Origin: a virus | Virus record (IMG/VR): IMGVR_UViG_3300036846_001083 | Coordinates: 1-25,264 of that record | Strand: one strand, 5' to 3' | DNA length: 25,264 bases | Shown here: piece by piece, positions 7,408-25,264 of the stretch | Layout of the letters: every line of letters begins with the position of its first letter | Position numbering within the stretch: position 1 is the first letter of the stretch | Program-made: the position numbers and the translations under genes | The notes under the pieces: model-generated | The model's input: the letters and a program-made list of their open reading frames with translations, nothing else | Told to the model about the DNA's origin: nothing | The model's database searches: none

Positions 7408-7772
7408 ACCATTTCAGAAGAGAGCACCACAGAGAAGGAGTGAACCAACGAACACGAGTGCGCCATGGGTAATGAGTGAACCACACCAAAGGAGAGCACC
7501 TTGGAACAAAGAGTGAACCATCTTGTCGGAGAGCACCACACCTGAAGAGTGAGCCAATCCAGCGGAAAGCGCCAAATTAGAGGAGCGAACCACAATCAAA
7601 GAGAGCGCCATGGGATGAGAGCGAGCCAAACTCCTTGCGAGCGCCATGAGTCAGAAGCGAACCAAGGTGAGTGAGTGCGCCAGTGTACCAGAGTGAGCCA
7701 AAGCATAGGAGAGCACCAATATATGAGAGTGAACCATCGCGGGTGAGAGCGCCAAGGTCTACGAGTGGAACC
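7384..7772 (+). repeat. TIGR-like array 2
   Basis: Twenty-two units with strict E/L alternation, starting 7384, 7402, 7420, 7438, 7456 and ending with a unit at 7763; the step is 18 nt except one 19 (7492 to 7511). The consensus is the same as in array 1 (E GAGAGCRCC, L GAGYGARCC), giving 11 double units of 36 nt. The first E unit lies inside the HNH coding sequence and the second (GAGTAAACC) supplies its TAA. The 12-nt stretch CCAATCCAGCGG at 7554-7565 also occurs in array 1 (5872-5883), so at least one spacer is shared. Both arrays begin with E and end with L. Confidence 0.85.
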
Positions 7773-10462: not shown

Positions 10463-10907
10463 TTCGCATGCCCAGATCGAATCGCTGCAGCGGGCGCTCA
10501 GGGAAAAAGTGGAGCGCATCTACGATCTGGAGGAGGAACTGCGCCAAGCCAAGGCAGAGCGCGCCGCCCTCGGCAACGGGGTGGCCAACCTGCGCATCAC
10601 CCTCGCGCCGCTCTATCAGGCCCTGCAGATGATCTTCGGCCACATCGACGCCATGAACGTGAGTCAGGCTGCTGGCACCCCGGTCTCCGCCTCCAAGCAG
10701 GCGGTGTGGGAGTCGTGGAAGCAAAAACTGGGCGGAGCCAACGCCCGCGCCATCGACATCCTCATGCTGCACGGCCCCATGACCGTCTCCAACCTGCGCA
10801 TCCATCTGTCCTGCGCCGCCCGCACCGCCCAGAACGTGGCCCAAAAATTAATCTCCACCGGCATCGCCCGGCGGGACAACGGGCGCATCGCCCTCAAGGA
10901 GCTTTGA
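10434..10907 (+). CDS. Coiled-coil plus winged-helix-like protein
   Basis: A 157-residue protein. Residues about 12-50 (IESLQRALREKVERIYDLEE, then ELRQAKAERAALG) are a coiled coil. Residues about 102-157 (ARAIDILMLHGPMTVSNLRI, then SCAARTAQNVAQKLISTGIA) have the pattern of a MarR-like winged helix-turn-helix ending in a short wing. It is probably a dimeric DNA-binding protein, a regulator or a replication accessory. GGAGGTG precedes the ATG. The family is inferred from pattern only. Confidence 0.6.
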   Translation: MGLTLTALPDSHAQIESLQRALREKVERIYDLEEELRQAKAERAALGNGVANLRITLAPLYQALQMIFGHIDAMNVSQAAGTPVSASKQAVWESWKQKLGGANARAIDILMLHGPMTVSNLRIHLSCAARTAQNVAQKLISTGIARRDNGRIALKEL

Positions 10908-10935
10908 AGCAACCAGCCAGCCGGGAGGTGGAAGA

Positions 10936-11163
10936 GTGCGCGCAGTGAATGCCCTGAAGCGGGCCGAGGTGTGGCTTGAAGTCGAGGACATCCAAGCCCG
11001 CATCGCCCCGCTGGACTGGTTCGCCTACGACGATCTGCGGCTGGCCATGGTGGCGGCGCGCCTCCTGACGCGGATCACCGGCGTTCCCTCCGGGCCGGTC
11101 AAAGACGGGAGGACAGGGCGGGGACGGACCCTCTACCGCATCGTGGCGGCGGGGGATTTGTGA
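10936..11163 (+). CDS. Small hypothetical protein, possibly helix-turn-helix
   Basis: A 75-residue protein from a GTG start after GGGAGGTG. It is helical (ALKRAEVWLEVEDIQARIAP, then YDDLRLAMVAARLLTRITGV) with a basic Gly/Arg-rich turn and a final strand (RTLYRIVAAG), which fits a small winged-helix fold. The TGA overlaps the GTG of the next gene. Function unknown. Confidence 0.55.
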   Translation: MRAVNALKRAEVWLEVEDIQARIAPLDWFAYDDLRLAMVAARLLTRITGVPSGPVKDGRTGRGRTLYRIVAAGDL

Positions 11164-11702
11164 ACGCCGAGAACCAATCCATCCTCTTCTCCCCGCCCAT
11201 GATCCGGGACATTCTGGCGGGGCGCAAGACCATGACCCGGCGGGTGGTGATTCCCCAGCCCGAAGACGCGGCGCAGATGCCCTTGTGTCCCTATCGCCCC
11301 GGCCAGCGCCGCTGGGTGCGGGAGGGCTGGCGACCGTGGCTGGCTTATTCGGGATGGCGGACGGTGTACTTAGCCGACAAGACGGAGCGGGCTATCACCC
11401 CTCCGCCCCACTGGAGCCCGCGCAGGCTGACGGGGATGACCGCCGCTCAGATGCCGGAATGGGCCAGCCGCATCACCCTCGAAATTATCAGCGTGGCGGT
11501 GGAGCGGGTGCAGCAGATCAGCGCGGAAGACATCATCGCCGAGGGGCTGAGCACGACCCTGCGGGAGTCGGAAGCCTGCGACGACCTGCGCATGCAGTTC
11601 GAGGCGCTCTGGGATCGCCTGAATCGCATGCGCGGCTTCGGCTGGGAGATCAACCCGCTGGTCTGGGTGATCCGGTTTATGGTTTGGAGGTGCCTGCGAT
11701 GA
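11160..11702 (+). CDS. ASCH-like domain phage protein
   Basis: A 180-residue protein. The segments ILFSPPMIRDILAGRKTMTR, CPYRPGQRRWVREGW, ASRITLEIISVAVERVQQIS with EDIIAEGL, and the final WEINPLVWVIRF follow the order of a common phage family (ILFS-xMVxAILxGRKTxTRR ... WVRExW ... WASRIxLEI ... NPxVWVxxF) generally assigned an ASCH-type RNA-binding fold. The GTG start overlaps the preceding stop; the stop overlaps the next ATG. The biochemical role is unproven; RNA binding is inferred from the fold. Confidence 0.75.
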   Translation: MNAENQSILFSPPMIRDILAGRKTMTRRVVIPQPEDAAQMPLCPYRPGQRRWVREGWRPWLAYSGWRTVYLADKTERAITPPPHWSPRRLTGMTAAQMPEWASRITLEIISVAVERVQQISAEDIIAEGLSTTLRESEACDDLRMQFEALWDRLNRMRGFGWEINPLVWVIRFMVWRCLR

Positions 11703-12439
11703 GCGCTCCATCCTTAGAGGGGCAGGAGTTTGGGGAGATCGTCCGCAAGGTCTACGGACCGCTCAAAGGGGTGCGCAGCGAGGTGATCGACTCCTACGAA
11801 GTGCCGCGCGTGTTCTACGCCCATATTCCCAAGTTGTCGGCGGCGAAGCAGGCCGGGACGCTGGGGCTCCTACTTCACTACGGGCTGCACTGCGGGCGCA
11901 TGGGACGTTCAAGGAGGACGGAAATGGATGTAGACAAGATGGTGGAGCGCTGGGCGCGGGTGATCACCGGCTTGGCCGTGGCCCATGACAAGGATGAGGC
12001 CGACCGCTACGAGGCGGCGGTGGAGGAGTGCCTGACCCCGTTGCTGGCCGCGCCCATCAGGCAGATCAGGGAGTTTTACCCTAAGCTGCTGACTACCCTC
12101 AAGTCCAATCCGCAGGTTCCCTTTCTGGTGTGGCGCAGCTACGAGCTATGGGTGGAGCAGGTGATCGCCAAAGCGGGCGACGAAGAGGTGAGGGAACTCA
12201 AGACCGCCATCGCCCGGGAGATCACCGATCTGGTGGAGCAGGACATCAAGGAGCAGCTTCCCGAGGCGCTGGTGCGCGCCCTGCAGTGGAGATCGGCGCA
12301 GACGCTGGAAGAGGTGAAAGAGGCCGTGACCCGCGACAAGGCCAAAGGCCGTAAGGCCAGACTGGTAGGCCGTGAGTCATGCCTTTTTCTGCACTGCGGC
12401 GGAGAGGGAGAGGACTCCGAGGTGTGTGTGCAAATCTAA
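11699..12439 (+). CDS. Hypothetical phage protein
   Basis: A 246-residue, mostly helical, charged soluble protein. The ATG (MSAPSLEGQEFGEIVRKVYG) has GGAGGTG 7 nt upstream and overlaps the previous stop as ATGA. The middle (MVERWARVITGLAVAHDKDE) and later regions are helical with many Glu and Lys; the C-terminus has two isolated Cys (CLFLHCGGEGEDSEVCVQI). No family was recognised. It is the last gene before a 90-nt gap with a stem-loop and a candidate promoter. Confidence 0.55.
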   Translation: MSAPSLEGQEFGEIVRKVYGPLKGVRSEVIDSYEVPRVFYAHIPKLSAAKQAGTLGLLLHYGLHCGRMGRSRRTEMDVDKMVERWARVITGLAVAHDKDEADRYEAAVEECLTPLLAAPIRQIREFYPKLLTTLKSNPQVPFLVWRSYELWVEQVIAKAGDEEVRELKTAIAREITDLVEQDIKEQLPEALVRALQWRSAQTLEEVKEAVTRDKAKGRKARLVGRESCLFLHCGGEGEDSEVCVQI

Positions 12440-13372: not shown

Positions 13373-13702
13373 ATGACCGACGATCAACTCATTGCATTGA
13401 CGGAACGTTTCGTCGTAGCGTGGGAGAAGATCGCCTCGGCTCTGGAGGGCCTCAATGAAACCTGCAGACGGGACCACGAAAAAAAATTCCCGGAGCGGAG
13501 CCAAGTCCGGGAAGCCGTCGTTACTCGCGTTCCCAGCCGGGAAGACCTCCTCCGCGAAGCCCAAGGCGCAAGCTCCGCCCCGCTCTCGGAGTGGCTCAGC
13601 GACGTGGAGCAGGAAGAACGGGACGCCGAGGATATCGGCGTCCGGGAACGGGAGTGGCTCGAAGCCCAAGGCGCTCGCCGTCCCGGCCAAGGGCGGGGTT
13701 AA
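13373..13702 (+). CDS. Small acidic protein overlapping the terminase-small candidate
   Basis: A 109-residue protein (MTDDQLIALTERFVVAWEKI, then ASALEGLNETCRRDHEKKFP) with helical, strongly charged composition throughout, including SEWLSDVEQEERDAEDIGVR. The last 248 nt overlap the next gene in another frame. Both frames look protein-like: this one acidic and helical, the other basic and disordered. The upstream ribosome site (GGCAGGA) is weak. It could be a small packaging accessory protein. Confidence 0.5.
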   Translation: MTDDQLIALTERFVVAWEKIASALEGLNETCRRDHEKKFPERSQVREAVVTRVPSREDLLREAQGASSAPLSEWLSDVEQEERDAEDIGVREREWLEAQGARRPGQGRG

Positions 13703-14285
13703 GCGTCGCCGGGAGGCGCTCAAGCGTCTCAAGGTTTCCCCCCATCAGCTTGCCGCCGCGCCCCAGATCACCCCCCTGCTGAAGCGAGCCGACGGGGGCA
13801 TCAAGCAGGTGGTTGCGGCCATGCGCTTCTCTCCCGACGACACCATCGCCGCTTTCCTTAGTAAGTACGATTCGATTCCCTCGGGCGACCGCGAGCGCCT
13901 GCCCGTGGAGGCCATCGCGCTGGCGGCGGGACTCGATGTCGCCACCCTGCTGGGATCGGTGATGCTGGCGTTGCAGGCGCAGGCGGTGAGCGCCGTCAAG
14001 ATCATCGCCATGACCGCGCACCCCAAGATTACCCAAGCCAGAGTGGTTTGGGGGCAGACGCCGTTTGGGGAGAAGGATCGCACCGCGCTGGACACCGCCA
14101 TGGGCTTCCTTCCCAGCCCCAAGGGGCCGACCTTCATCGGTAAAGCTATTTTCGGGTCCGGCAAGGCCGAGGAGGTTGAGGACGAGGACAGCGGCTCCAC
14201 GCTGGAGGACCGGCTCTTCCCGCCCGCCAACGAGATGCAGCAACGGCTGGTGCCCATCCGCCAGCGCCTGCCGCCGCCTTCTTGA
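13455..14285 (+). CDS. Candidate terminase small subunit-like protein
   Basis: A 276-residue protein immediately upstream of the terminase large subunit. Residues about 1-75 are Lys/Ser/Pro-rich and probably disordered. The rest is helical (LKRLKVSPHQLAAAPQITPL; FSPDDTIAAFLSKYDSIPSG; RLPVEAIALAAGLDVATLLG, a helix-turn-helix-like stretch), followed by an acidic tail. Position and helix-turn-helix character suggest DNA recognition for packaging, but sequence similarity to a known small terminase is not evident. The start has GGAGGG 5 nt upstream even though it lies inside the preceding gene. Confidence 0.5.
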   Translation: MKPADGTTKKNSRSGAKSGKPSLLAFPAGKTSSAKPKAQAPPRSRSGSATWSRKNGTPRISASGNGSGSKPKALAVPAKGGVKRRREALKRLKVSPHQLAAAPQITPLLKRADGGIKQVVAAMRFSPDDTIAAFLSKYDSIPSGDRERLPVEAIALAAGLDVATLLGSVMLALQAQAVSAVKIIAMTAHPKITQARVVWGQTPFGEKDRTALDTAMGFLPSPKGPTFIGKAIFGSGKAEEVEDEDSGSTLEDRLFPPANEMQQRLVPIRQRLPPPS

Positions 14286-14309
14286 CGCGATGGCTGCAGG
14301 GGCTTAGTT
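14282..14309 (+). promoter_or_regulatory. Promoter-like motif, copy 1
   Basis: TTGACG (14282-14287) is followed after 16 nt by TTAGTT (14304-14309). The same arrangement, with a shared GGGCTTAGTTT block, recurs at 20325-20353. The -10 match to a bacterial consensus is poor, so this is inferred from conservation between the two copies. It lies across the stop codon of the terminase-small candidate. Confidence 0.5.
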
Positions 14310-14398
14310 TTTAATCCACAGCGAGACGCATACTCCCCGCGCAGGCGGGATCAAGTCATGGCTCCGGCTACTCCGCCGGGGCCATTTTCATTTTGGCC
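14301..14398 (+). ncRNA. Two-hairpin structured element, copy 1
   Basis: After GGCTTAGTTT comes ACTCCCC, then hairpin 1 (CCCGC 14336-14340 with GCGGG 14345-14349, 4-nt loop) and hairpin 2 (GGCTCCGGC 14360-14368 with GCCGGGGCC 14375-14383), then ATTTTCATTTT. The order and spacing match copy 2 at 20345-20445, and differences inside the stems are compensatory. The final hairpin plus T-rich stretch resembles an intrinsic terminator, so a small RNA, an attenuating leader or an antitermination site are all possible. It argues that the terminase starts after it. Confidence 0.6.
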
Positions 14399-14399
14399 T

Positions 14400-17300
14400 A
14401 TGTATTCCGAAGCCACCATTGAGCGCAATCTCGAAGAGTTTGAAGCCCGCGAGGGCTGGTTCCCGCGCTACCACACCTATGACGAGGTGCGGGAGTTTAC
14501 CGCCTACATCAACGGGCTGCTCAAGACCGAATCGAACACCAAGTCCAGCTACTACACCGTAGTGAAGGAACTCAGCGAAAAGCGGCAGAAAGAGATCACC
14601 CGCTGGGTCCTGAACGAGCAGGCGCTGTGCAATCCGCCAGAAGCTCCGATATGGATGGCCGATTTTACTTTCAAGCCGATTGGCGATATTCAGCCCGGAG
14701 ACAGAATCATCGGTTGGCAGCGAAGCGTTAAAAAAGCGAACCGCAAGTCCACCAAGTCTCCGAAAAATTTAGAGCGGCTGGTTAGAACTACGGTGGTCGC
14801 TGTCGGGAGACGAAAATCGCCAATAGTCAGAGTGACGATGGAATCGGGGCGGGTGATCAGGTGTACGCCAGATCACCTGTGGTCGTGCGGCGCAACATAT
14901 CGCGGTGAGTGCCCTTGGCAGTCCGCGAAGATAGGGCGGCTTCTGCGACGGGTCGTGGATGTTTACAGCAACGAGCCTGCGGACATTAGGCTCGCCGGTT
15001 GGCTGGGTGGAATCTATGACGGTGAGGGGCACAAGGGATCGATTCATCAATCCCCATTTCATAACGCTGACGTTTGTGAGGCGATTGAGTCAACCCTGTC
15101 TGCGCTTAATTTCAGCTTCTCAGTTTACCGCGCAGCCAACAAGACGGAGAAAGGTAAAGACCGACGATCTAATTGCTACCAAATCCTCGGCGGCGTAAGT
15201 GTGCTGGCTCGATTCGCGGCGTGGTGTAAGCCCTGCCGCAATGACGGTCTGGACGCTCGCATCCTGCGGACAATGCGAGCCTCTACCGACAGAATTATCA
15301 ACGTCGAGCCGGATGGAGAGGGAGAGGTCGTCTCCATGCAGACCGAAACCGGCAATTACATTGTCTGGGGATATGCCAGTAAAAACTGCGGGCTGGACTC
15401 CGGCTATTGGGAGCGGAATTACGCATGGGTGTGCGACGAGAAGGGGCAGATATTTAAATTCAAGAACCGCAAATCACAGGAAGTATTCGATAGCATCATC
15501 GCCGAGTTTGACGAAAAGGGCGTGTCCATCGAACTGCTGATCCTGAAAGCGCGGCAGGTGGGGATTTCCACCAAGACGGCCCTCAAGTTCATTCATCGCC
15601 TGATGTTTATTCCCCACACGCAGGCGGTGATGGCCTCGGTGCAGAAGGACAAGTCGGAGTTGATCGGGCGCATTCTGGACACCGCCTATAACCGCTGTCC
15701 GTGGTGGCTGGTGCCCAACCGCATGCCGAGGCGCTCCTTCGATAACGGGTCGATTCTTTCCATTCAGTCGGGCATGCAGGCCACCGGACTGGCGCAAGGA
15801 TGGACGCCCACCTCAATCCACATCTCCGAACTGGCCGATATCCCCAACCCCAAGGTGACCATTGAAGAGGGCCTGTTCCGCGCCGCTCACTCCTCGCGGA
15901 ATTTATTCATGGTGCTCGAAGGCACCGGCGGCGGCAATACCGGATGGCTGGCGGATACATGGCGAGCCGCCAAGGAGGACTGGCCCAAAGGGCTGGCGCG
16001 GTTGTTCCCCATGTTCATCCCGTGGGCCATGTGTCCGGACATCTATCCGGAGCCGGACTGGCTGCTGAAGTTTCCTTTGCCGGGCGGGTTCCAGCCCCAC
16101 GAGATGACCCGCAAGCATGTCATCAAATGTGAGTCCTATATCCGCAACACCCCCTATCTGTCCAGAATCGCGGGCCGGGACTGGCGCATGCCCATGGAGC
16201 AGAAGTGGTTCTGGCAGTTCAACTACGACGAAGCCTGCAAGAAGCACACCCAGCGGACGTGGGCGGCGCAGATGCCCGCTGACGACCACGAAGCCCTAAC
16301 CGGCATTCACGACAGCGTGTTCGACCCCGAGGTGCTGATGGAGGTCGAGGACCGCATCTACGAAATCGCCCCGCTCGCCGACCAGCGGCAGCGCAAACAG
16401 CCGATGCAGATATACGCCATTACCGGTCACGACGTGGATGAGGTGTTTCATCCGCCCGACGCCCGCATCGACTGGGACAAGCCCTGCGTGAAGGTGGAGT
16501 GGGACTCCTATCGCGGCCAGCACTTCGACTGGAACATGATCCCGCTGCTCGCCGTGGACGAGGAAAAAGAGCGCGACACCTTGGATTACCTGCTGGTGTA
16601 TGAATGGCCGAAACACGGTTGCCAGTATAGCTGCGGCGTCGATACGGCGGACGGTTTAGGCAAAGAGGACGAGGAAAGAAGCTGCCTGTCGGTTACCAAA
16701 AACAGGTTTCACGGAGAATGCGACCAGCAGGTCGCGGAGCTTACTTCGAACCGCATCAACTCCGCCCAGATCGTGGCCTTCGCGGCCTGCGTGGGCGCGC
16801 TCTACGGCCCATGCTGCCCCGACAGCCGGGGGCTGAAATACTGCATCGAGCAGATTCAGGGGCCGGGCGACACCTGCCAGCACCAGTTGAAGATGATGGG
16901 CTTCTTTAATCACCACATCCCCCGCCGCTACGACTCGAAAAAGATTAAGGACGACTCCAGCCGCAAGGAAGGCTGGTACTCCAATACATGGTCGGTGCCG
17001 ATCATGATGACCCGCTTTACGGAGGCCGTCAACGGCGGCTGGTACGAGCCCAGATCGCGCTGGCTGATCGAGGAACTGCGCACCTTGGAGCGCCATGAGA
17101 CAGCGGGCAAGTCGAAGATGGAGCACCAGACCGGCAAGTTCGACGACCGGGTGAGAGCCGCCGCCACCTCCTATTTCACCGTCCACGACATGGACGTGCT
17201 GACGGAACGGGCGCAGAAGCGCTACGCCCAGCCGGTGAAGAAGCCGTCGTATTCGAAGAATTTGTGCCGCGCCACGCAGGTGTCAGTGGGAGGCTGGTGA
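14400..17300 (+). CDS. terL: Terminase large subunit (intein-containing)
   Basis: A 966-residue precursor; removing the 253-residue intein leaves about 713 residues. The ATPase Walker A-like motif is ARQVGISTK (about residue 384, or 131 after splicing), the Walker B-like motif is SIHISELADIP, and MVLEGTGGGNTGW is the coupling segment. The C-terminal RNase H-like nuclease is shown by YSCGVDTADG, an acidic residue in YCIEQIQGPG and FDDRVRAA. It cuts concatemeric phage DNA and drives it through the portal. The ATG at 14400 (MYSEATIERNLEEFEAREGW) was chosen because the in-frame ATG at 14358 lies in the structured element and would add a Pro-rich segment coded by a hairpin; no clear ribosome site precedes either. 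Confidence 0.9.
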   Translation: MYSEATIERNLEEFEAREGWFPRYHTYDEVREFTAYINGLLKTESNTKSSYYTVVKELSEKRQKEITRWVLNEQALCNPPEAPIWMADFTFKPIGDIQPGDRIIGWQRSVKKANRKSTKSPKNLERLVRTTVVAVGRRKSPIVRVTMESGRVIRCTPDHLWSCGATYRGECPWQSAKIGRLLRRVVDVYSNEPADIRLAGWLGGIYDGEGHKGSIHQSPFHNADVCEAIESTLSALNFSFSVYRAANKTEKGKDRRSNCYQILGGVSVLARFAAWCKPCRNDGLDARILRTMRASTDRIINVEPDGEGEVVSMQTETGNYIVWGYASKNCGLDSGYWERNYAWVCDEKGQIFKFKNRKSQEVFDSIIAEFDEKGVSIELLILKARQVGISTKTALKFIHRLMFIPHTQAVMASVQKDKSELIGRILDTAYNRCPWWLVPNRMPRRSFDNGSILSIQSGMQATGLAQGWTPTSIHISELADIPNPKVTIEEGLFRAAHSSRNLFMVLEGTGGGNTGWLADTWRAAKEDWPKGLARLFPMFIPWAMCPDIYPEPDWLLKFPLPGGFQPHEMTRKHVIKCESYIRNTPYLSRIAGRDWRMPMEQKWFWQFNYDEACKKHTQRTWAAQMPADDHEALTGIHDSVFDPEVLMEVEDRIYEIAPLADQRQRKQPMQIYAITGHDVDEVFHPPDARIDWDKPCVKVEWDSYRGQHFDWNMIPLLAVDEEKERDTLDYLLVYEWPKHGCQYSCGVDTADGLGKEDEERSCLSVTKNRFHGECDQQVAELTSNRINSAQIVAFAACVGALYGPCCPDSRGLKYCIEQIQGPGDTCQHQLKMMGFFNHHIPRRYDSKKIKDDSSRKEGWYSNTWSVPIMMTRFTEAVNGGWYEPRSRWLIEELRTLERHETAGKSKMEHQTGKFDDRVRAAATSYFTVHDMDVLTERAQKRYAQPVKKPSYSKNLCRATQVSVGGW
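14628..15386 (+). mobile_element. Intein with LAGLIDADG homing endonuclease inside terL
   Basis: A 253-residue in-frame insertion beginning with Cys (CNPPEAPIWM) and ending SKN before a Cys +1. Splicing-domain blocks are visible: block A with IGDIQPGDRIIGW near residues 18-30, block B GRVIRCTPDHLW (74-85) and block F EVVSMQTETGNYIVWGY (about 233-249). A LAGLIDADG-type motif, RLAGWLGGIYDGEG (121-134), marks a homing endonuclease. The residue before the terminal Asn is Lys rather than the usual His. Flanks join as NEQAL-CGLDSGYW, restoring the terminase just upstream of its Walker A. The segment looks more AT-rich than the flanking terminase. Confidence 0.88.
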
Positions 17301-17689
17301 TGACGAACGCGCAACTATCCAAAAAAATCTGCTACTGGCAGGACCGGAACGGGGCGCTTTATATGGGGTTGCCGGAGCGGTTCCCGGCTCCACCCGGCAT
17401 GGAGAAGATTGTGTGCGCCAGCGCTCTTCAGGCGGAGTTCTGGTCCAAGCGGATGCGCCAGCAGGAGCGGGTGCGGGAGATGGCCAAGGACGAAGAGCGA
17501 GAGAGGGTGGAGGGACCGATGCGCAAGAACCTGCGTTCCCATATTCAGCATCTAGCCGCCAACGCCCGCAACAATACCAACCGCGACTTCCTTCTCAAGC
17601 ACTTGGAAAATTACGAACGCCGCCCCGACCTGACCAAGAGCAGGTATGAGAGCTACCTGCACTCCGAAGCCTACGAGCAGAACGGATGA
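17300..17689 (+). CDS. Hypothetical protein between terminase and portal
   Basis: A 129-residue charged protein (MTNAQLSKKICYWQDRNGAL). The N-terminal 45 residues could be a small beta domain; the middle (SKRMRQQERVREMAKDEERE) is a strongly basic and acidic helix, and the C-terminus is helical. The start overlaps the terminase stop (TGATG) with GGGAGG upstream, so it is co-translated. It may be a head-assembly accessory; no family was recognised. About 178 nt without a convincing gene follow before the portal. Confidence 0.6.
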   Translation: MTNAQLSKKICYWQDRNGALYMGLPERFPAPPGMEKIVCASALQAEFWSKRMRQQERVREMAKDEERERVEGPMRKNLRSHIQHLAANARNNTNRDFLLKHLENYERRPDLTKSRYESYLHSEAYEQNG

Positions 17690-17867
17690 TTCCCGTGGAC
17701 GAAGAAATTAATTTGCGCTAGGATACGCGCAGATTTCGGGTTAGCTAAACTCGGGGAAAGAATGGGGCAGGAGTGGCAATTAAGCGGATTGCCGATCTTC
17801 GTCGAACTTCCCAACCTGCGCCGCCCAAATCCACCGATCATAGTATTCATCATCGTATGGAGGACTT

Positions 17868-19958
17868 ATGCCAGTAATTCTGGACAGTCCTCAGTACGCC
17901 CCCTCCTCGCTGGCGCATACCAGTTGGCAGTGCCCGCCCTTCGAATCTCCGCAAAGTACCCGCTTCGGCTGGGTGGAAGAGCAGATTCAGGAAGGCGAGG
18001 GGTTCCTTGAAGGCCAGCAGTGCTACAAGGAATATCCCTCCAACCTGCGCGTCTTCAATGGGGTTTTCAAGGACAACGCGCGCTCTAAATTAATTACCAA
18101 CGAGCTTAAATACGACATCCGCAAGTTCTGCGAGACGCTGGCGCAGGTAAGAGAGATCGCCGGGTACGGTTCCGACCATCCCGCCTTCCGGAAGATGGCG
18201 GAGATGCTGACCAAGGTCTCGAAGGCGATCTATCTGGAATCCGACTTTCCTTTCCAAATCCTGAAGGTGCTCCAGTATGCCAGCGTGATGGGGATCGGCT
18301 ACCTGTGGCCGAGGGTGCGGGCGGACGAATACGGCTACGGCGAACGCAAGATGGAATTCGATGCGCTGGGACTGCTGGACGTGGTTCCGGTACAGATTCC
18401 GCCGCGCTCCAACAACGTGCAGGACGCCTATGCGGTGACGGTGTACGACTATATGCCGATTGCCGAGGCGCACGGCAGGTTCCCGCTCTTCCAAAGTTAT
18501 CTGCAGACGGTGGGACCGAGGAACTATATCACCCGCATGCAGGCGCGCCGGATCGACTACGCGGAGCGATTCCGCTATGGTCAGCAGGGCCGCAGCTTCG
18601 GCGATCTCTACAGCGAAATCCGCTACACCTTCATCCGTGACCTGCGCATCAACAGCACCGGCCTCGAACTGCCCATGGGCGACATTGGAACGACGTGGTT
18701 CTATAAAGTTCCCTTTGTCGGCCAGTCGATTATTGGCGGAGTCAGCAATGGCGCGCCCTTCTTCCGGGCGGCGACCCCGGAAGACTGCCGGGTCTATCCC
18801 AACCTGCGCCTGATCATCACTTCGTCGGGTATGGACAAAGTGATGTATGACGGACCGGCGTTCGACTGGGACTCCAAGGTTCCGGTCATTCAGTACACCG
18901 TGGATGACTGGGCATGGGAGCCGCTGGGCCGGTCCTTGGTGGGCGACGTGTCCAGCATCGAAACCACTACCCGCAAGATCGAACGCAAGATGGATGCGGT
19001 CATCACCGTGACCCTGAACCCGCCGCTGGGCTACAACCATATGGAGACCGGCGGAGCCAAGGTAGAGCACTTCGACATCTTCGAGGAAGACGTTCGCATC
19101 GGCGTGGACGGCAAGCCCCGGGAGACGCTGCAGTCGGTGCTGCCGGATACGGTGAAGGTGGAGAGCGACCACTTCCAGTTCCTGAAGTATCTGAAGGAGT
19201 GCAAGCAGAACCAGCTTGGCCTGCAGGACCTCGGCAACTTGCAGAACATGAAGATGAACATCGCCAACGAGACCGCCGACAAGATGCTGGAGTCTATCGG
19301 GCCAATCGCCAAGGGCATCGCGGCCCGCATCGAAAAAGGCAACAAGGCGGTGGGCTACAGGATGAAATTCATGATCCTGCAGTGGTTCAATGTGCGCCGC
19401 ATCATGGAGTACGTGGGGCCGGAGAATGTAGCCCCGGAGATTTTCGACTTCAACCCCGACGCTCTGGTGCCGTCGCACATGCCCGACGAGATGATCAACG
19501 GGCAGTTTCCCGACACCCCCTCGGTCTATCCGCAGCTTGACCGGGCGCGCTGGTTCGCGCGCAACATCCGCCTGACTTCGGTTCCATCCACTCTACTCAA
19601 GATTACCCAGATGCAGCGCCAGTTGGCCATGCTGCAACTGAAGCGCGGCGGTGCCCCGATCTCATGGCTCACGGTCTTTAAGAACATGGACATCGCCAAT
19701 CCCGAGCAGGAGATCGAGGACAGCTTCAAGGAGCAGTCGCGTCTCGAAGTCATGAAGGTTCTGTCGCAGCTTGACCTGATGAAGAAGCTGAAGGATATGG
19801 GCATCGATCCGCAGGCGCTGATGGGCGGCGGCGATCAGCAGCAGGGCGGCGGAAAAGGCAAGGGCGGCGGCAGGCCAGCCTCCGGCCAGAAGGGGCCGCG
19901 CATTGCCCAGAAGGGCGCGCAAGGAGGCGAGCCCCGTACCGTCGTCAAAGAATCGTGA
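17868..19958 (+). CDS. Portal protein
   Basis: A 696-residue protein in the portal position, between terminase and scaffold/capsid genes. Size and content fit a portal: a long alpha/beta core with the segment SIETTTRKIERKMDAVITVT typical of the portal stem region, a following KMNIANETADKMLESIGPIA helix, and a Gly/Gln/Lys-rich disordered C-terminus (MGGGDQQQGGGKGKGGG). Portals form the dodecameric DNA channel at a capsid vertex and dock the terminase. GGAGG lies 6 nt before the ATG. The assignment is mainly from context and overall pattern. Confidence 0.8.
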   Translation: MPVILDSPQYAPSSLAHTSWQCPPFESPQSTRFGWVEEQIQEGEGFLEGQQCYKEYPSNLRVFNGVFKDNARSKLITNELKYDIRKFCETLAQVREIAGYGSDHPAFRKMAEMLTKVSKAIYLESDFPFQILKVLQYASVMGIGYLWPRVRADEYGYGERKMEFDALGLLDVVPVQIPPRSNNVQDAYAVTVYDYMPIAEAHGRFPLFQSYLQTVGPRNYITRMQARRIDYAERFRYGQQGRSFGDLYSEIRYTFIRDLRINSTGLELPMGDIGTTWFYKVPFVGQSIIGGVSNGAPFFRAATPEDCRVYPNLRLIITSSGMDKVMYDGPAFDWDSKVPVIQYTVDDWAWEPLGRSLVGDVSSIETTTRKIERKMDAVITVTLNPPLGYNHMETGGAKVEHFDIFEEDVRIGVDGKPRETLQSVLPDTVKVESDHFQFLKYLKECKQNQLGLQDLGNLQNMKMNIANETADKMLESIGPIAKGIAARIEKGNKAVGYRMKFMILQWFNVRRIMEYVGPENVAPEIFDFNPDALVPSHMPDEMINGQFPDTPSVYPQLDRARWFARNIRLTSVPSTLLKITQMQRQLAMLQLKRGGAPISWLTVFKNMDIANPEQEIEDSFKEQSRLEVMKVLSQLDLMKKLKDMGIDPQALMGGGDQQQGGGKGKGGGRPASGQKGPRIAQKGAQGGEPRTVVKES

Positions 19959-19993
19959 GCCGTGGCGAAATTAATTCCGGGAGAGGACGAAGA

Positions 19994-20257
19994 ATGGCGA
20001 TCCGAATTAAAACCCAGAGAGATTACCTGCTCACGGAGGTAAGTATGGAACTACCCTGTGATCTGAGCGACCTCGACCTTGTGATGCGCACCCAGCGCGC
20101 CACCGGTAAGATCGTGGCGCAGTACAGCGAGGGCGGCTTACTGGGCATCAACGTGGAACAGCGCACCAAAGTTCGCGAGGGGATCAGCGACAAAGTGCGG
20201 GAGATTATCGGCGTGGGCACCAAGGAATTCAATGGCGATCATGAGGGTTCGGAATAA
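19994..20257 (+). CDS. Small hypothetical head-region protein
   Basis: An 87-residue protein (MAIRIKTQRDYLLTEVSMEL, then PCDLSDLDLVMRTQRATGKI). AGAGGA precedes this ATG at good distance; an equally good start is the ATG at 20045 after GGAGGT, giving 70 residues (MELPCDLSDL). It lies just after the portal gene and before the second promoter/hairpin element. Function unknown. Confidence 0.55.
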   Translation: MAIRIKTQRDYLLTEVSMELPCDLSDLDLVMRTQRATGKIVAQYSEGGLLGINVEQRTKVREGISDKVREIIGVGTKEFNGDHEGSE

Positions 20258-20324
20258 GCTGCGCCTATGTTCCATACATGGCCGAATGGCTCGAAAGAAG
20301 ATTAAAAAATCTGCGAATTAAGTC

Positions 20325-20353
20325 TTGACGGTGCGGAACAGTTGGGCTTAGTT
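20325..20353 (+). promoter_or_regulatory. Promoter-like motif, copy 2
   Basis: TTGACG (20325-20330), 17-nt spacer, TTAGTT (20348-20353), sharing GGGCTTAGTTT with copy 1. It lies in the 220-nt gap after the small gene that follows the portal. Confidence 0.5.
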
Positions 20354-20445
20354 TCGTAGGAGATTAAAACCGAGATGCAGACTCCCCAGTAGGTACTGGG
20401 AATAGGTCGTGGCTCTGGCGCAACGCTAGGGCCATTTTTATTGCG
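20345..20445 (+). ncRNA. Two-hairpin structured element, copy 2
   Basis: GGCTTAGTTT, then ACTCCCC, then hairpin 1 (CCCAGT 20385-20390 with ACTGGG 20395-20400, loop AGGT) and hairpin 2 (GGCTCTGGC 20411-20419 with GCTAGGGCC 20425-20433), then ATTTTTATT. Compared with copy 1, hairpin 1 has a different stem that still pairs, and hairpin 2 has C-G changed to T-A and G-C to G-T. Function unknown; possibilities are a small RNA ended by the second hairpin, an attenuator, or an antitermination site acting near the promoter. Confidence 0.6.
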
Positions 20446-20478
20446 ACCTAGCCCAAACCGAAAAAAAGGAGCATCTCC

Positions 20479-20580
20479 ATGGCAAAGCGTCGTCGTCACT
20501 CCGCAGGTGCCGTCCACATGAAGAAGGCCCGCAAGCGCCGCCACCACAAGGGCGGCAAGAAGTCGGCCATCAAGGCTTAG
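20479..20580 (+). CDS. Small Lys/Arg/His-rich protein (33 aa)
   Basis: The product is MAKRRRHSAGAVHMKKARKR followed by RHHKGGKKSAIKA, extremely basic, with an AAAGGAGC ribosome site. It resembles the basic tails of the two small proteins at 24596 and 24764. It could bind DNA or RNA, or be a minor basic head component. It is the first gene after structured element copy 2. Confidence 0.6.
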   Translation: MAKRRRHSAGAVHMKKARKRRHHKGGKKSAIKA

Positions 20581-20651
20581 CTTCAACTCCCACCCGGCGG
20601 GCACCCCCCGCCGGGAACTCAACCTCATGAGCTTACCCGGGAGTTACAGCA

Positions 20652-20975
20652 ATGGCCACTCCGTCCATGCCACCGCAACCTGATCAAGGAGCGCCTCCGC
20701 CCAACCAGATGGGCGGCGCACCTCCCGACCAAGGCGGGCAGCAGCCCAACGGCCAACCGCCCGATCAAGGTCAGGGGCAACCTTCCTCGTTTCAGGCTCC
20801 GGCAAACCCTCTGCAAATGCTTCTCGCCAAGTGGTTCAAGGTGGCCGAGCAGATGGCCGCTGCCGATCCGCGTCTGGCCTCCGGCGCGCAGAAGGTGCGC
20901 GAAGGGGTTCAGGAAATGCAGACGGCGCTGGTGACCCCTCAGCAGCCCACGCCCATGGCCCAACAACCGAAATAA
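20652..20975 (+). CDS. Pro/Gln/Gly-rich head-region protein
   Basis: A 107-residue protein. The first 50 residues are low-complexity Pro/Gln/Gly (MATPSMPPQPDQGAPPPNQM), followed by a helical segment (ANPLQMLLAKWFKVAEQMAA) and a second helix with VREGVQEMQTAL. A GGGAG ribosome site precedes the ATG. Genes of this kind next to scaffolds often encode small structural or chaperone proteins, but nothing here is diagnostic. Confidence 0.55.
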   Translation: MATPSMPPQPDQGAPPPNQMGGAPPDQGGQQPNGQPPDQGQGQPSSFQAPANPLQMLLAKWFKVAEQMAAADPRLASGAQKVREGVQEMQTALVTPQQPTPMAQQPK

Positions 20976-21007
20976 AACGCAGCACAACCGTCCGGGAGGG
21001 ATGAGTA

Positions 21008-21958
21008 ATGGCAATGACAGTTGAACAAGTTTTGCGCGAGAGCGGATTCACCGACGAGCAGATCAGGGGTCTCGACCCCAAAGCCATTACCGCGTTCGGC
21101 GGAGTGCTGAGCACGGCGGAGAGGGAACGGACGGAAGCGCTGCAGGCGCGTGACGCCGCCGAGCTTGCGCAGCGCTCCAACGTGGACTTCTACGAAAACA
21201 AGATTGCCCCGTCGCTGACCGCGTGGGAAGAGGAGAAGCAGCGCATCGACAACGAGTCCGCCAAATCGAAAGCCGAGGCCGCGTATTACCGCACGCAGGC
21301 CGAAGAAGCCAAGAAAGGCGGATTTATCCCCGCCGAAGCGCCCGGTTTCGATGCCAGCAGGTTCGTTCCGCCGAATCCCGCCGTCCCGCCTCGCGACCCA
21401 CAGGGCCGCTACGTGGCCAACGCTCCCGGCGGCGTCCCCGGCTCCCCGCAATACTTCGACGTGAACAAGGTCTATGAACGCGCCGGTGACGCGGTGGGCA
21501 TCCTGACCGACATCCAGTGGGAGCACCAGCGTTTGTTCGGCCAGCCGCTGCCCATTTCGCCCACGGAATTAATTCGGCAGGCCGATGCGCAGAAGCTGGA
21601 CCCCAAGAGTTATGCCGCGCGCACCTTCAACTGGGATCAGCGCCGCCAGCAGATGCGCGAGGACGAGCAGAAGAAACACGACGACGAGATCGCCGCCAAG
21701 GCTTCTGCCAGCGCTGAGCAACTGCGGAAGGAAGACGAGGAGCGGCACAAGAAGGAACTGCAGGAAGTGGACCGCAAGTGGGCCGAGCGGGTGGGGTCCA
21801 ACCCCGACGTGCGCCGCCCTGTGGACAGCCGGTTCTCCGACATTCAACGCGCGGTGAAGGCTAACGACCTGCCTGATCCGCTGAGCCTGAACGACCAGCA
21901 GCGCCGCGCGCAAACTGCGTCCATGATCCGCAAGGACATGGCGGAGACGGTGCAGTGA
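21008..21958 (+). CDS. Probable scaffolding protein
   Basis: A 316-residue, highly charged protein directly before the major capsid gene. The N-terminus (MTVEQVLRESGFTDEQIRGL) is followed by long Ala/Glu/Lys/Arg-rich coiled-coil stretches (ERERTEALQARDAAELAQRS; RREDEQ-type region near 210-260, e.g. ASASAEQLRKEDEERHKKEL) and a disordered Pro-rich middle (SRFVPPNPAVPPRDPQGRYV). This pattern and position are typical of scaffolds, which template capsid assembly and are removed later. The start was chosen at 21008, with GGGAGGG upstream. Confidence 0.7.
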   Translation: MAMTVEQVLRESGFTDEQIRGLDPKAITAFGGVLSTAERERTEALQARDAAELAQRSNVDFYENKIAPSLTAWEEEKQRIDNESAKSKAEAAYYRTQAEEAKKGGFIPAEAPGFDASRFVPPNPAVPPRDPQGRYVANAPGGVPGSPQYFDVNKVYERAGDAVGILTDIQWEHQRLFGQPLPISPTELIRQADAQKLDPKSYAARTFNWDQRRQQMREDEQKKHDDEIAAKASASAEQLRKEDEERHKKELQEVDRKWAERVGSNPDVRRPVDSRFSDIQRAVKANDLPDPLSLNDQQRRAQTASMIRKDMAETVQ

Positions 21959-22020
21959 TGAACGAGTACCGCCAGAACGTGATCGAGAAAACAGCCTAAC
22001 GCTGAAAGGAAAATTGCGCC

Positions 22021-23259
22021 ATGCCGACCGATCCTCTCTATAACGAAATCGATGCGAGCAATTTGGAGTCAGTGAGAAGGAACGTCGTATTCAACAATTT
22101 ATTTGTTGGCACTCCCTTTCAGGCCAAGCTGCGTCGCGCGGGCGTGTGGGACGAGTTTCTGGGCGGCGCTGGCATGATGGAAGGCGTCCTGTACGGGCGC
22201 ACGCAGGGCGCGGCGGTTAATCCCGGCCAGACCATCACTGTGACCCGCCAGCAAATCAACACCGGCATCAAGTTCCTGCCCAAGGCGTATGCCACATGGT
22301 ATCCGCTGGACGACTGGGAGATGGACGACGGTTCCGGCACCGGCGGGGTCATTAACTCCGGCCCCTCCAAGATCGTGGACGAGTACCAGTTATACATGGA
22401 GAACCTCGTCCTGACCATGAACACCATGCAGGAGATGGACTCCTTCCGCCACGGGCAGGCGGCGTCGGCCACGGTTACGGACAACCGTACCAAAACCATC
22501 AACGGGCTCGATGAGGCGTTGAACAACGGCATCGATCCGTCGGTGTACGGCAATGTCTACAAGTCTTACGGCGGGCAGCAGCGCAACGGCAATGTCGGCG
22601 TGGCGCTGAACTCCACGCCGGTCTACTGCGGCACCCCCTCGGGCGGCACCGGGCAGATCGACTTCGCGGTGCTGATGCAGCTTTGGTCACAGTGCAAGGT
22701 GACCGGCGGCAGTCCTTCGCTGGGCATTACCAACGTGTTCGGCTTCAAGGCCGTGGCCATCGCGCTCGACGCGCAGCGCCGCGACGTTTCCAACACCCGC
22801 CACGATATCAAGTGGGATGGGTTGAACTTCAACGGCGTGGATATCTACGCCGATCCGCTGGCTCCCTCGGCTCAGGCGCAGAACTACATCGCGCTGGGCG
22901 CGGGCGCGGGCGGCGGGCAGGGTAATGCCAGCTTGGTGGACGGCGTGGGACAGAGCACTCAGACGGTGCAGTTCCAGACACCGCAGTTCGTCGGACCCAC
23001 AGGTGCTCCGGTTGCGTTTTCACCGACCGGTTCCGGCCTGCCATCAAACACCACCATCCAACCGGGTGAATACCTCGCCTTCCTTGAGCCGGAGTCATTC
23101 AAGATTCGGCCCACCAACAAGAAGGGCTGGAATTTTGGACTGCGCCGCGCGCCGATGCCCAACAACGTCAGCATCGATGCGCTGTTCATGAGGCTGGGCA
23201 TCAACCTATACAACGTTCAGCCGCGCCACAATTGTTACGCGTTCTCGTTCGCCTCGTAA
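22021..23259 (+). CDS. Major capsid protein
   Basis: A 412-residue protein between the scaffold and decoration-type genes. The N-terminal region starts MPTDPLYNEIDASNLESVRR and is followed by segments rich in Gly, Asn and aromatic residues (GQTITVTRQQINTGIKFLPK; ATWYPLDDWEMDDG; DIKWDGLNFNGVDIYADPLA). Its length and position and the DGLNFNGVDIYAD segment are consistent with an HK97-fold major capsid protein, the shell subunit. AAAGGA precedes the ATG. The fold is inferred, not shown by motif. Confidence 0.75.
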   Translation: MPTDPLYNEIDASNLESVRRNVVFNNLFVGTPFQAKLRRAGVWDEFLGGAGMMEGVLYGRTQGAAVNPGQTITVTRQQINTGIKFLPKAYATWYPLDDWEMDDGSGTGGVINSGPSKIVDEYQLYMENLVLTMNTMQEMDSFRHGQAASATVTDNRTKTINGLDEALNNGIDPSVYGNVYKSYGGQQRNGNVGVALNSTPVYCGTPSGGTGQIDFAVLMQLWSQCKVTGGSPSLGITNVFGFKAVAIALDAQRRDVSNTRHDIKWDGLNFNGVDIYADPLAPSAQAQNYIALGAGAGGGQGNASLVDGVGQSTQTVQFQTPQFVGPTGAPVAFSPTGSGLPSNTTIQPGEYLAFLEPESFKIRPTNKKGWNFGLRRAPMPNNVSIDALFMRLGINLYNVQPRHNCYAFSFAS

Positions 23260-23294
23260 CTGGTTTATCGGTAAAGCTTTCAAGGAGATTGTCC

Positions 23295-24128
23295 ATGCCG
23301 CAGCAACAGATGCTTCCGACTTGGTTGGCGATCAACAACGCCAACTTTCCGACCGCGTCCGGAATTCAGGACTTGCGTACAGGACAAGACTTTCCTGCCG
23401 GTGGACTGAACGCTGGAGACTATTTCGATACGACCGAGCAGGAAGCCAACAATGCGTCGGCGCTGACCGTTGGACTGCTTCACCATGGCCGCTACCGTCT
23501 GGTCAACGTGGATTCAGGCGCTACTGTGGCCAACGTCAAAACCGGCACTATCGGCTATCTGCGCGCTGGCATGTTCGTGCAGGGTGCGGTGGCCACTACG
23601 CCGGGATCAGGCGCGACGGCGGGTGTTTACAGTGTCCCGGTTCCGCTCAACTCAGGGAACGGCAACGGCGCGATCCTATTGATCACTATCGGCGCGACCG
23701 GCGGCATCGCCGCGATCAGCGTGCCGCAGGGCGGGCAGGGCTACACAACCGCGCCGACCATTACCAACGCGCAGATCGCGGCAGTGATCACCGGCCTGAC
23801 GGGCGCGGTGGTGGCGCTGCAGTTGAGTTCTTCGCCTAACCGCGTGACCAGTTCCGATCAGGCCCAAACCTCCAAGACCATGGTGTGCCCGGTAGTGTTC
23901 CTGAACCCCATCACGCCGGGGAACTGGGGCTTCGTGCAGGAGTTGGGTCTGGCCACGGTGCTGGGCAGCGCTGCGGGTACGGCCAACAACTTCGTGAACG
24001 TTGTCCCGGCCAGCGGGCTGGGAGTGGACAGCGCCACATTCGGGCCGCTCACCGTGGGCCAGTCCATCGATGTGCCTATCGCGGGGCTGTTCAAGGCGTA
24101 TCTCAACGGACCGGTGAAACAGGACTAA
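23295..24128 (+). CDS. Decoration- or fibre-type structural protein
   Basis: A 277-residue protein starting MPQQQMLPTWLAINNANFPT after AAGGAGA; earlier in-frame codons fall inside the end of the capsid gene. It is rich in Gly, Ala, Thr and Val with many short strands (TVANVKTGTIGYLRAGMFVQ; ISVPQGGQGYTTAPTITNAQ), like capsid decoration proteins. The GGQGYTTAPTIT segment resembles repeats in phage structural proteins. It has no catalytic motif. The role is inferred from composition and the position directly after the major capsid gene. Confidence 0.55.
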   Translation: MPQQQMLPTWLAINNANFPTASGIQDLRTGQDFPAGGLNAGDYFDTTEQEANNASALTVGLLHHGRYRLVNVDSGATVANVKTGTIGYLRAGMFVQGAVATTPGSGATAGVYSVPVPLNSGNGNGAILLITIGATGGIAAISVPQGGQGYTTAPTITNAQIAAVITGLTGAVVALQLSSSPNRVTSSDQAQTSKTMVCPVVFLNPITPGNWGFVQELGLATVLGSAAGTANNFVNVVPASGLGVDSATFGPLTVGQSIDVPIAGLFKAYLNGPVKQD

Positions 24129-24142
24129 GTGAAGGAGCCGAC

Positions 24143-24502
24143 ATGCAACTGACAATGCTCAAGGGTTACCCGGATTTTGTCGGCAAGCGCGCCACCTTTG
24201 TCGGTTATGGCAACGGCCCCGCTTCTTACGTCCAGTTGGTTCAGGGAGTTGCGCCCGCTGCGGGAACAGGCGGTGATCCGCTTACGTTTCTACTGCCGAA
24301 TTACTACATCGACGCCATCGACAGCGCCGGAGTGCTGACGGTCAGCGGCAAGTACTTCGTGCGGGCAATCTCCAGCGGCGTGGGAGCACGACAGAAATGG
24401 GCGTTGGTGTGGTATGTGACGACAGGTGGCGCGGAGGCGGGCGCAGGAGTAATCCTGTCGGCGGAACAGGTTCAGATCGGCGGCAAATGCGGCCAGTATT
24501 AG
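24143..24502 (+). CDS. Small beta-rich structural protein
   Basis: A 119-residue protein (MQLTMLKGYPDFVGKRATFV) with alternating short strands and Gly/Ala turns (ARQKWALVWYVTTGGAEAGA), likely a small head decoration or completion protein. AAGGAG precedes the ATG. No family was recognised. Confidence 0.55.
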   Translation: MQLTMLKGYPDFVGKRATFVGYGNGPASYVQLVQGVAPAAGTGGDPLTFLLPNYYIDAIDSAGVLTVSGKYFVRAISSGVGARQKWALVWYVTTGGAEAGAGVILSAEQVQIGGKCGQY

Positions 24503-24515
24503 CGCCGCGCACGAG

Positions 24516-24580
24516 GTTCTCTCCCCTCCCGGAGGAACAGCAAACGCCCTTACGGAGAGCGATCTTCGTGGGGGCGTTTG
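24516..24580 (+). other. Two stem-loops between head genes
   Basis: Stem 1: GTTC/CTCC (24516-24524, one bulged T) with GGAGGAAC (24531-24538). Stem 2: CAAACGCCC (24541-24549) with GGGCGTTTG (24572-24580), a 9-bp perfect stem. The architecture is again two hairpins, but sequence and promoter motif differ from the elements at 14.3 and 20.3 kb. No T-run follows, so an mRNA-processing or leader element fits better than a terminator. Confidence 0.4.
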
Positions 24581-24595
24581 AGTCAGGAGATGGTT

Positions 24596-24754
24596 ATGGC
24601 GAAAAAGATGGCGATGGCTGAAGAAGATGAGACGCCCGAGATGGAAGCCAAGGAACATTCCAAGGGCTTCCTGAAGCGCGCCGCTCACGTGGCAGGCAAG
24701 CCGCACCACAAGAAGGCAGGGAAGAAGCACTCCCGTAAACGCGTTTCCAAGTGA
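24596..24754 (+). CDS. Small Lys/His-rich basic protein (52 aa)
   Basis: The product starts MAKKMAMAEEDETPEMEAKE and ends AGKKHSRKRVSK: an acidic patch followed by a Lys/His/Arg-rich tail (KPHHKKAGKKHSRKR). AGGAG lies 6 nt before this ATG; an ATG two codons earlier is too close to it. The tail resembles those of the 20479 and 24764 products. Possibly nucleic-acid binding or a minor head component. Confidence 0.6.
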   Translation: MAKKMAMAEEDETPEMEAKEHSKGFLKRAAHVAGKPHHKKAGKKHSRKRVSK

Positions 24755-24763
24755 GGAGGCGCT

Positions 24764-24997
24764 ATGCCGAGGAACATGCAGCAGTCCAACCCGGATTCCG
24801 GCGTCGATACGGCGCTTTCCAAGGCCAATCAGGCGCAACTGAAATTAAGCCACGAGCGGGGCAAGGCGCAGATCGCCAGCCGCCCGGTATCCATTCAGGA
24901 CAAGACTGGTCGGTGGGTAACGATGCCCCACGCGCAGGCCATGCAGCATGTCAAGGGCGGCAAAAAGAAGAACGCCAGCAAGCGCGTTCCCAAGTGA
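24764..24997 (+). CDS. Small hypothetical protein with basic tail
   Basis: A 77-residue protein (MPRNMQQSNPDSGVDTALSK) with a helical middle and a Lys-rich end, KGGKKKNASKRVPK, similar in form to the tail of the preceding product. GAGGAGGC precedes the ATG, 9 nt after the preceding stop, so the two genes are co-translated. Function unknown. Confidence 0.6.
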   Translation: MPRNMQQSNPDSGVDTALSKANQAQLKLSHERGKAQIASRPVSIQDKTGRWVTMPHAQAMQHVKGGKKKNASKRVPK

Positions 24998-25005
24998 GGT
25001 AAACC

Positions 25006-25164
25006 ATGGCCATAGCAGCGACTCCGCAAAACCGCCCCTACCTGAATTGGGGCAAGGCGAAGTCCGCCATTGTTCCTGCGGCGAGACCGGCGACAGCGCG
25101 GCGCACCGTGCCGACGGCACCGTTTCCGGCTATTCGCTTCTACCTGAAAGCGCTGGCGAAGTAG
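25006..25164 (+). CDS. Small basic hypothetical protein (52 aa)
   Basis: A 52-residue Ala/Pro/Arg-rich protein, MAIAATPQNRPYLNWGKAKS to FPAIRFYLKALAK. GAGGT precedes the ATG, 8 nt after the previous stop. It belongs to the same run of short head-region genes. Function unknown. Confidence 0.5.
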   Translation: MAIAATPQNRPYLNWGKAKSAIVPAARPATARRTVPTAPFPAIRFYLKALAK

Positions 25165-25177
25165 AGGTGCGGCGATC

Positions 25178-25264
25178 ATGTCACTGGACACAATGCGGTC
25201 GGAGCTTCTCGGCATCCCCGGATGCAACTACGGCCTTGTGACCACCAAAATTAACGAGTCCCTC
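25178..25264 (+). CDS. Head-region protein (partial, N-terminus only)
   Basis: The first 29 codons of a gene that leaves the window: MSLDTMRSELLGIPGCNYGL then VTTKINESL. GAGGTG precedes the ATG. The position suggests a head-completion or connector gene, but the fragment is too short to assign. Confidence 0.5.
   Translation, partial: MSLDTMRSELLGIPGCNYGLVTTKINESL

Follow-up and report, generated by a model that had tools for sequence, protein, structure and literature searches.

The 25,264-base IMG/VR virus fragment analyzed here (IMGVR_UViG_3300036846_001083; hereafter the window) carries two intergenic copies of a structured RNA element which, on sequence comparison, we interpret with moderate confidence as a cis-acting, multi-copy attenuator-type leader switch. 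By default the switch would be OFF through a terminator-like hairpin (hairpin A), and it would be ON when an alternative 5' structure, Stem I, is stabilized. Copy 1 lies between the end of one gene at 14285 and the gene for the terminase large subunit, and copy 2 between a small open reading frame (ORF) 3' of the portal gene and the gene of a 33-aa basic protein at 20479. A preliminary description of both copies (14282-14398 and 20325-20445) had listed TTGACG, TTAGTTT 16 and 17 nt downstream, ACTCCCC, two hairpins and T-rich tails. All of these were confirmed, and the compensatory stem changes noted there proved genuine and extend over dozens of copies in other genomes. The window has exactly two matches to the pattern ACTCCCC-N10..30-GTCRTGGCTC, against none in 100 shuffles, the RNA strand of the element is more stable than shuffles (z about -3 to -4), and the two copies are the sole plus-strand terminator-like sites detected in 13500-25264. 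Hairpins 1 and 2 of the description stand, but it had overlooked the outer pairings GAG/CUC and CAUAC/GUCAUG (CAGAC/GUCGUG in copy 2), which surround hairpin 1 and compete with hairpin 2.

The element is 66-79 nt long. In an alignment of 62 diverse copies (A5), Stem I comprises P0, GAG(C) paired with (G)CUC; P1, CAUGC paired with GC(A)AUG in five pairs plus one bulged base; and hairpin 1 (hp1), with a C-rich 5' side, a G-rich 3' side, a variable loop and a conserved AA-N-AA at the 3' side. Hairpin A, AAUGGCUCAAG paired with CUUGGGCCAUU, is followed by UYURUUU. Hairpin B, AGAAAUGGC paired with GCCAUUUCU, is found in most relatives and is absent in the window clade. Across the 62 copies Stem I is 92.3% paired with 51 double-changed cells (12.4 shuffled), hairpin A 96.8% with 40 (9.0 shuffled) and hairpin B 81.1% with 41 (24.4 shuffled), and all three pair counts lie above the shuffled and slid controls. 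P1 pair 12-53, for example, is A-U in 53 copies, G-C in 8 and U-A in one and is never unpaired, while pair 14-50 is G-C, A-U or G-U in 62/62. P1 reads UAUGC/GC(C)AUA in L143 and L303; P0 reads UAG/CUA by eye in L037 and L040, where the automatic alignment misplaces it. Sequence conservation spans GAG to TTT, and both the unpaired loop A44 A45. A47 A48, at 1.4-1.6 bits, and the T-tract, reaching 1.9 bits, are conserved, the former arguing for something that reads this loop.

The 3' strand of P0/P1 is at the same time the 5' strand of hairpin A (common columns 51-58), and therefore the outer pairs of Stem I and hairpin A exclude each other. The 3' strand of hairpin A also serves as the 3' strand of hairpin B. 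Folding of successive prefixes predicted that, as far as column 78, 0.79-0.90 of copies form P0 and 0.84-0.94 form P1. A switch to hairpin A is predicted between columns 82 and 85, after which hairpin A is expected in 97% of copies and P0 in 2%; the predicted advantage of hairpin A over Stem I averages 4.4 kcal/mol. The covariance model R1, built from 19 copies, included P1 and hairpin A but left out P0, which makes P0 the only one of these pairings that does not depend on the model. The consensus places a GC hairpin with a T-tract between the putative transcript start and the gene, as in terminator-type attenuators, and an alternative 5' stem with covariation support shares the terminator strand. 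Among the three readings offered in the preliminary description (small RNA, attenuator, HK022 put-like site), the attenuator fits best, since the 5' stem has a competitor in the terminator-like hairpin, which lies immediately before the start codon.

The portal protein was used to gather 52 related loci, and R1 detects the element in most of them (best matches 1e-15 to 1e-22), usually at three sites: upstream of the terminase gene, 3' of the portal gene and upstream of the major capsid protein gene. These further covarying homologues strongly support the earlier proposal of a conserved RNA. Searches of whole records yielded 2-8 genuine copies in most records, distributed in the better-covered ones along 30-40 kb of same-strand genes. 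A model of Stem I only (R2) matches 28/32 records at more than 100 places, in a single orientation within each record; antisense R1 matches arise from the palindrome of hairpin A, and R2 yields none. More distant phages (L032, L037, L040, L049, L022) keep the same plan with altered bases. The exact pattern ACTCCCC..GTCRTGGCTC gave 49 stretches in viral contigs, no excess over a rough chance estimate, and only one (L054) was taken further. Rfam (release 15) holds no family above its gathering cut-off at the element in the window, L045, L133, L138, L033 and L032, which puts the element outside Rfam, and literature searches returned no description of it.

Copies lie directly upstream of genes, namely those of terminase, the gene after portal, major capsid and others, including nuclease/RecT genes. 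For most copies, about 10-60 nt separate the end of the upstream gene from GAG, and the following gene begins about 90-140 nt after GAG, as judged by a heuristic ORF choice that sometimes skips a short first gene. With copies assigned to classes by simple text rules, a TTG-type (sigma-70-like) -35 box was found 36-50 nt upstream of 19/19 terminase, 22/23 post-portal, 1/12 capsid and 27/52 other copies. Most of the better-scoring copies have a -10 box whose start lies 17-22 nt upstream, so that transcripts are expected to start 5-8 nt before the element; a full promoter scores above the 95% shuffle threshold in 26% of copies. The promoter boxes described earlier are present in the window, but taken alone they are weak (no plus-strand promoter at 9/12 in a window scan), and their support comes from the fixed position in relatives. 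As the capsid copies are promoterless, the RNA part is evidently kept without the promoter. An additional ORF, which may encode a homing endonuclease, lies between the element and the capsid gene of several relatives (L006:6021, L045:10010, L027:6309, L018:4509).

The sequences themselves show the structures, their covariation, the mutual exclusion of the pairings and the positions; from these we infer the following course of events, including start site, termination, stabilizing factor and direction of control. Transcription would start about 5-8 nt upstream of the element or enter from the preceding gene, and Stem I, with P0, P1, hp1 and the AA-N-AA internal loop, would fold first. Without help, the emerging complementary strand would capture the 3' strand of Stem I (AAUGGCUC) to form hairpin A, which together with the T-rich tail would end transcription before the gene (OFF). 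If Stem I were held, most likely by a protein of phage or host or by RNA polymerase that reads the conserved loop, hairpin A would not form and the gene would be transcribed (ON). In the few copies without hairpin A the competing fold would cover the ribosome site, so that folded Stem I would again mean ON.

Three of these terminator-less copies (L137:9648, L138:11953, L139:12483) consist of Stem I without hairpin A about 280 nt upstream of a full copy and ahead of a 58-aa basic protein, and are followed by a ribosome site complementary to hp1. In two others (L143:9170 and L303) Stem I is retained and the start region is a possible pairing partner of the switching strand. The predicted free fold hides much of the ribosome/start site in each of the five, and forcing Stem I exposes more of it. 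Furthermore, the complementarity of hp1 is greater for the leader downstream of it than for the leaders of other copies, an effect localized to +0 to +24, and pairing of hp1 with the downstream leader in full copies is only suggestive.

Several observations weigh against the attenuator-type switch or its extension to the ribosome site. The tails are T-rich rather than pure T runs, the shared strand may, given how little P0 GAG/CUC varies, in part reflect chance plus sequence constraint, and kinship among copies inflates the pair counts. No NusG domain was found in the 10 phage records searched for a trans factor; Sigma70 region 4 was above cut-off in 2/10. Control phage gene starts behave like the terminator-less copies in fractions of 0.03-0.33, a modest significance, and since random starts do so often enough, covering of the ribosome site in these copies is only suggestive. 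Finally, the p value for pairing of hp1 with the ribosome site rose from 0.0002 to 0.01-0.06 once related copies were thinned.

HK022 putL and putR are about 70 nt long, form two stem-loops with an irregular stem I and stand at the 5' end of phage transcripts (PMC9378689). If the element worked alike, the folded leader would bind elongating RNA polymerase, through the zinc-binding domain of beta-prime and with no dedicated protein, and make it ignore downstream terminators, including its own hairpin. The similar size, the two-stem plan just after a promoter as in putL (PMC9378689; a promoter-type box accompanies most terminase and post-portal copies), the conserved internal loop and the position of several copies before long gene blocks speak for this mode of action. 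However, R1 found nothing in HK022 25000-40000, the regulatory region, up to E 10 (no converse search with a put model was made), and membership in put is thereby left unsupported by sequence or structure homology. Moreover, the two put stems coexist, whereas hairpin A is incompatible with full Stem I; hairpin B could coexist with it, but is absent in the window copies. The second hairpin of the element carries a T-tract and competes with the first stem, some copies have no second hairpin, many stand at late genes and the capsid copies are promoterless, all of which makes put-like action unlikely, although conceivable. We judge about equally doubtful a mainly translational or mRNA-processing role, in which the stems would govern either the access of ribosomes or cleavage by RNase and stability, the T-rich tail being incidental. 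The element abuts the ribosome site, hp1 is complementary to its own leader and the terminator-less copies pair the ribosome site instead, but the T-tract and hairpin A are conserved with terminator spacing in nearly all copies and the hp1 pairing weakens on thinning.

Still less probable is late control of the lambda Q kind, where a phage protein loading at the promoter or a pause would override the terminator. Like the lambda pR'-tR' late leader, the element combines a promoter, a short leader and a terminator ahead of late genes, an order that is found upstream of terminase here and is common to many late operons. However, lambda has one such site, while here promoterless capsid copies retain the full element, the RNA structure is conserved rather than the DNA between promoter and start, and copies also precede nuclease/RecT genes. 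A free-standing small RNA, made from the promoter, ended at hairpin A and acting elsewhere, is very improbable: promoter and terminator do enclose about 100 nt in the window copies, but there are many copies per genome, each tied to a gene start, and complete promoterless copies at capsid genes as well as terminator-less ones exist. We also tried and rejected a leader-peptide attenuator, as columns 52-54 read ATG in 52/62 copies but GCG or ACG in 8, pairs 12-53 and 53-86 mostly stay paired in the non-ATG copies, and lengths vary out of frame.

The attenuator-type switch resembles terminator/antiterminator attenuators and riboswitch-type leaders in that a 5' stem and a terminator-like hairpin, each excluding the other, precede the regulated gene, and in that a constant sensor part goes with several arrangements of the output. 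It differs from them in recurring as many as about eight times on a single phage genome, and no Rfam family matches it. ANTAR (EutV) antiterminator RNAs likewise have two hairpins, the second overlapping the terminator; in the present element the switch is a long-range outer stem. The SAS/ESAS elements of cluster K mycobacteriophages are multi-copy, lie just upstream of gene starts, mostly in one orientation, and about half have inverted repeats; they consist of a 13-bp motif plus 17-bp inverted repeats in the non-structural half of the genome (PMC3203893). The element described here stands at structural genes and has a different sequence and a competing-stem design.

Features of the two element copies and their downstream genes in the window
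Feature	Position	Strand	Remark
Copy 1 promoter-like boxes	14282..14310	+	TTGACG 14282-14287, TAGTTT 14305-14310, spacer 17; relatives share this placement with respect to the RNA element
Copy 1 Stem I	14323..14364	+	
Copy 1 P0	14323-14325 / 14362-14364	+	GAG/CTC
Copy 1 P1	14329-14333 / 14355-14360	+	CATAC/GTCATG, one bulged base
Copy 1 hp1	14336-14340 / 14345-14349	+	CCCGC/GCGGG
Copy 1 3' internal loop	14350-14354	+	ATCAA
Copy 1 hairpin A	14358..14385	+	terminator-like, mutually exclusive with P0/P1
Copy 1 T-rich tail	14386..14394	+	TTTCATTTT
Terminase large subunit	14400..17300	+	intein-like insert; downstream of copy 1
Copy 2 promoter-like boxes	20325..20354	+	TTGACG 20325-20330, TAGTTT 20349-20354, spacer 18
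Copy 2 Stem I	20372..20415	+	
Copy 2 P0	20372-20374 / 20413-20415	+	GAG/CTC
Copy 2 P1	20378-20382 / 20406-20411	+	CAGAC/GTCGTG
Copy 2 hp1	20385-20390 / 20395-20400	+	CCCAGT/ACTGGG
Copy 2 3' internal loop	20401-20405	+	
Copy 2 hairpin A	20409..20435	+	terminator-like
Copy 2 T-rich tail	20436..20442	+	TTTTATT
33-aa Lys/Arg/His-rich protein	20479..20580	+	GGAG ribosome site; downstream of copy 2

An in-frame ATG at 14358 upstream of the terminase gene falls within hairpin A of copy 1, and the true start is probably the ATG at 14400. The intein-like insert (about 14628-15389) begins with Cys and ends with Asn followed by Cys, and had no Pfam match; terminases of relatives measure 716 aa in several cases and 1088 aa in others. 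Neither Pfam nor PHROGs has a family for the 33-aa protein. Small Lys/Arg-rich proteins (33-42, 58, 81-93 aa) come after many element copies in the window and its relatives and could be RNA- or DNA-binding. A DNA search of a phage collection with the window gave no match. As portal and capsid protein searches matched solely the Acidobacteriota phages Tunturi_1 and Tunturi_2 (about 28-30% identity), the host is probably an acidobacterium, and the carriers, a family of soil phages, probably infect Acidobacteriota; R1 detected no copy in Tunturi_1 at E up to 10.

Elsewhere in the window, two tandem arrays (5066-5900 and 7402-7670) consist of 36-nt units, in each of which two 9-nt edges are conserved (GAGCGAGCC, GAGAGCACC) and two 9-nt stretches vary. 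Together with the adjoining ORF 5898-6797, which has a weak IS110/Transposase_20 match, they look like a phage TIGR-Tas system (compare PMC12045711). In the 26.9-kb viral contig L158, a CRISPR array of 22 identical 37-nt repeats (10704-12229) adjoins an element copy upstream of PD-(D/E)XK nuclease and RecT genes; its spacers matched none of the loci gathered in this analysis.

A 67-bit copy was also detected on a 186-kb contig of an Acidobacteriaceae metagenome-assembled genome (L262; 4346-5393, minus strand), between a TacA1-like antitoxin gene and a GNAT (TacT-like) toxin-like gene, with a promoter-like TTGACA-N17-TATGGT. The pattern CATGCCC..AGCAATGGCTCA gave 61 stretches in 84,980 genomes, of which this alone scores with R1. 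Among 300 genomes of the same family six have an R1 match at E 1e-4, including L298 and L301, which resemble plain terminators, and G253, a phage-like contig with two diverged copies; class-wide, 399 genomes gave only G025 and G072 at E 1e-5. As L262 is the sole convincing chromosomal case among the 84,980 genomes searched by pattern and about 700 by model, it was likely captured from a phage. Speculatively, and with low probability, Stem I may be a genuine sensor domain that serves interchangeable outputs, either a terminator or a cover of the ribosome site, and through which one phage or host factor would switch a whole set of operons in the same phage at the level of RNA, and the bacterium may have taken the element to drive a TacA/TacT-type toxin triggered by infection with such phages.

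Phages usually express their late genes from a single promoter or by means of a sigma factor, polymerase or antiterminator of their own. The logic of attenuation is already known; neither this RNA family nor its recurrence along a phage genome has been described, as far as our searches show. One structured RNA before many operons of large uncultured soil phages would constitute a regulon controlled by RNA folding in cis. The element is a concrete, easily tested part and offers a route to the factor working the switch, and the single chromosomal copy, placed before a toxin gene, raises the testable possibility that the toxin is controlled in response to phage.
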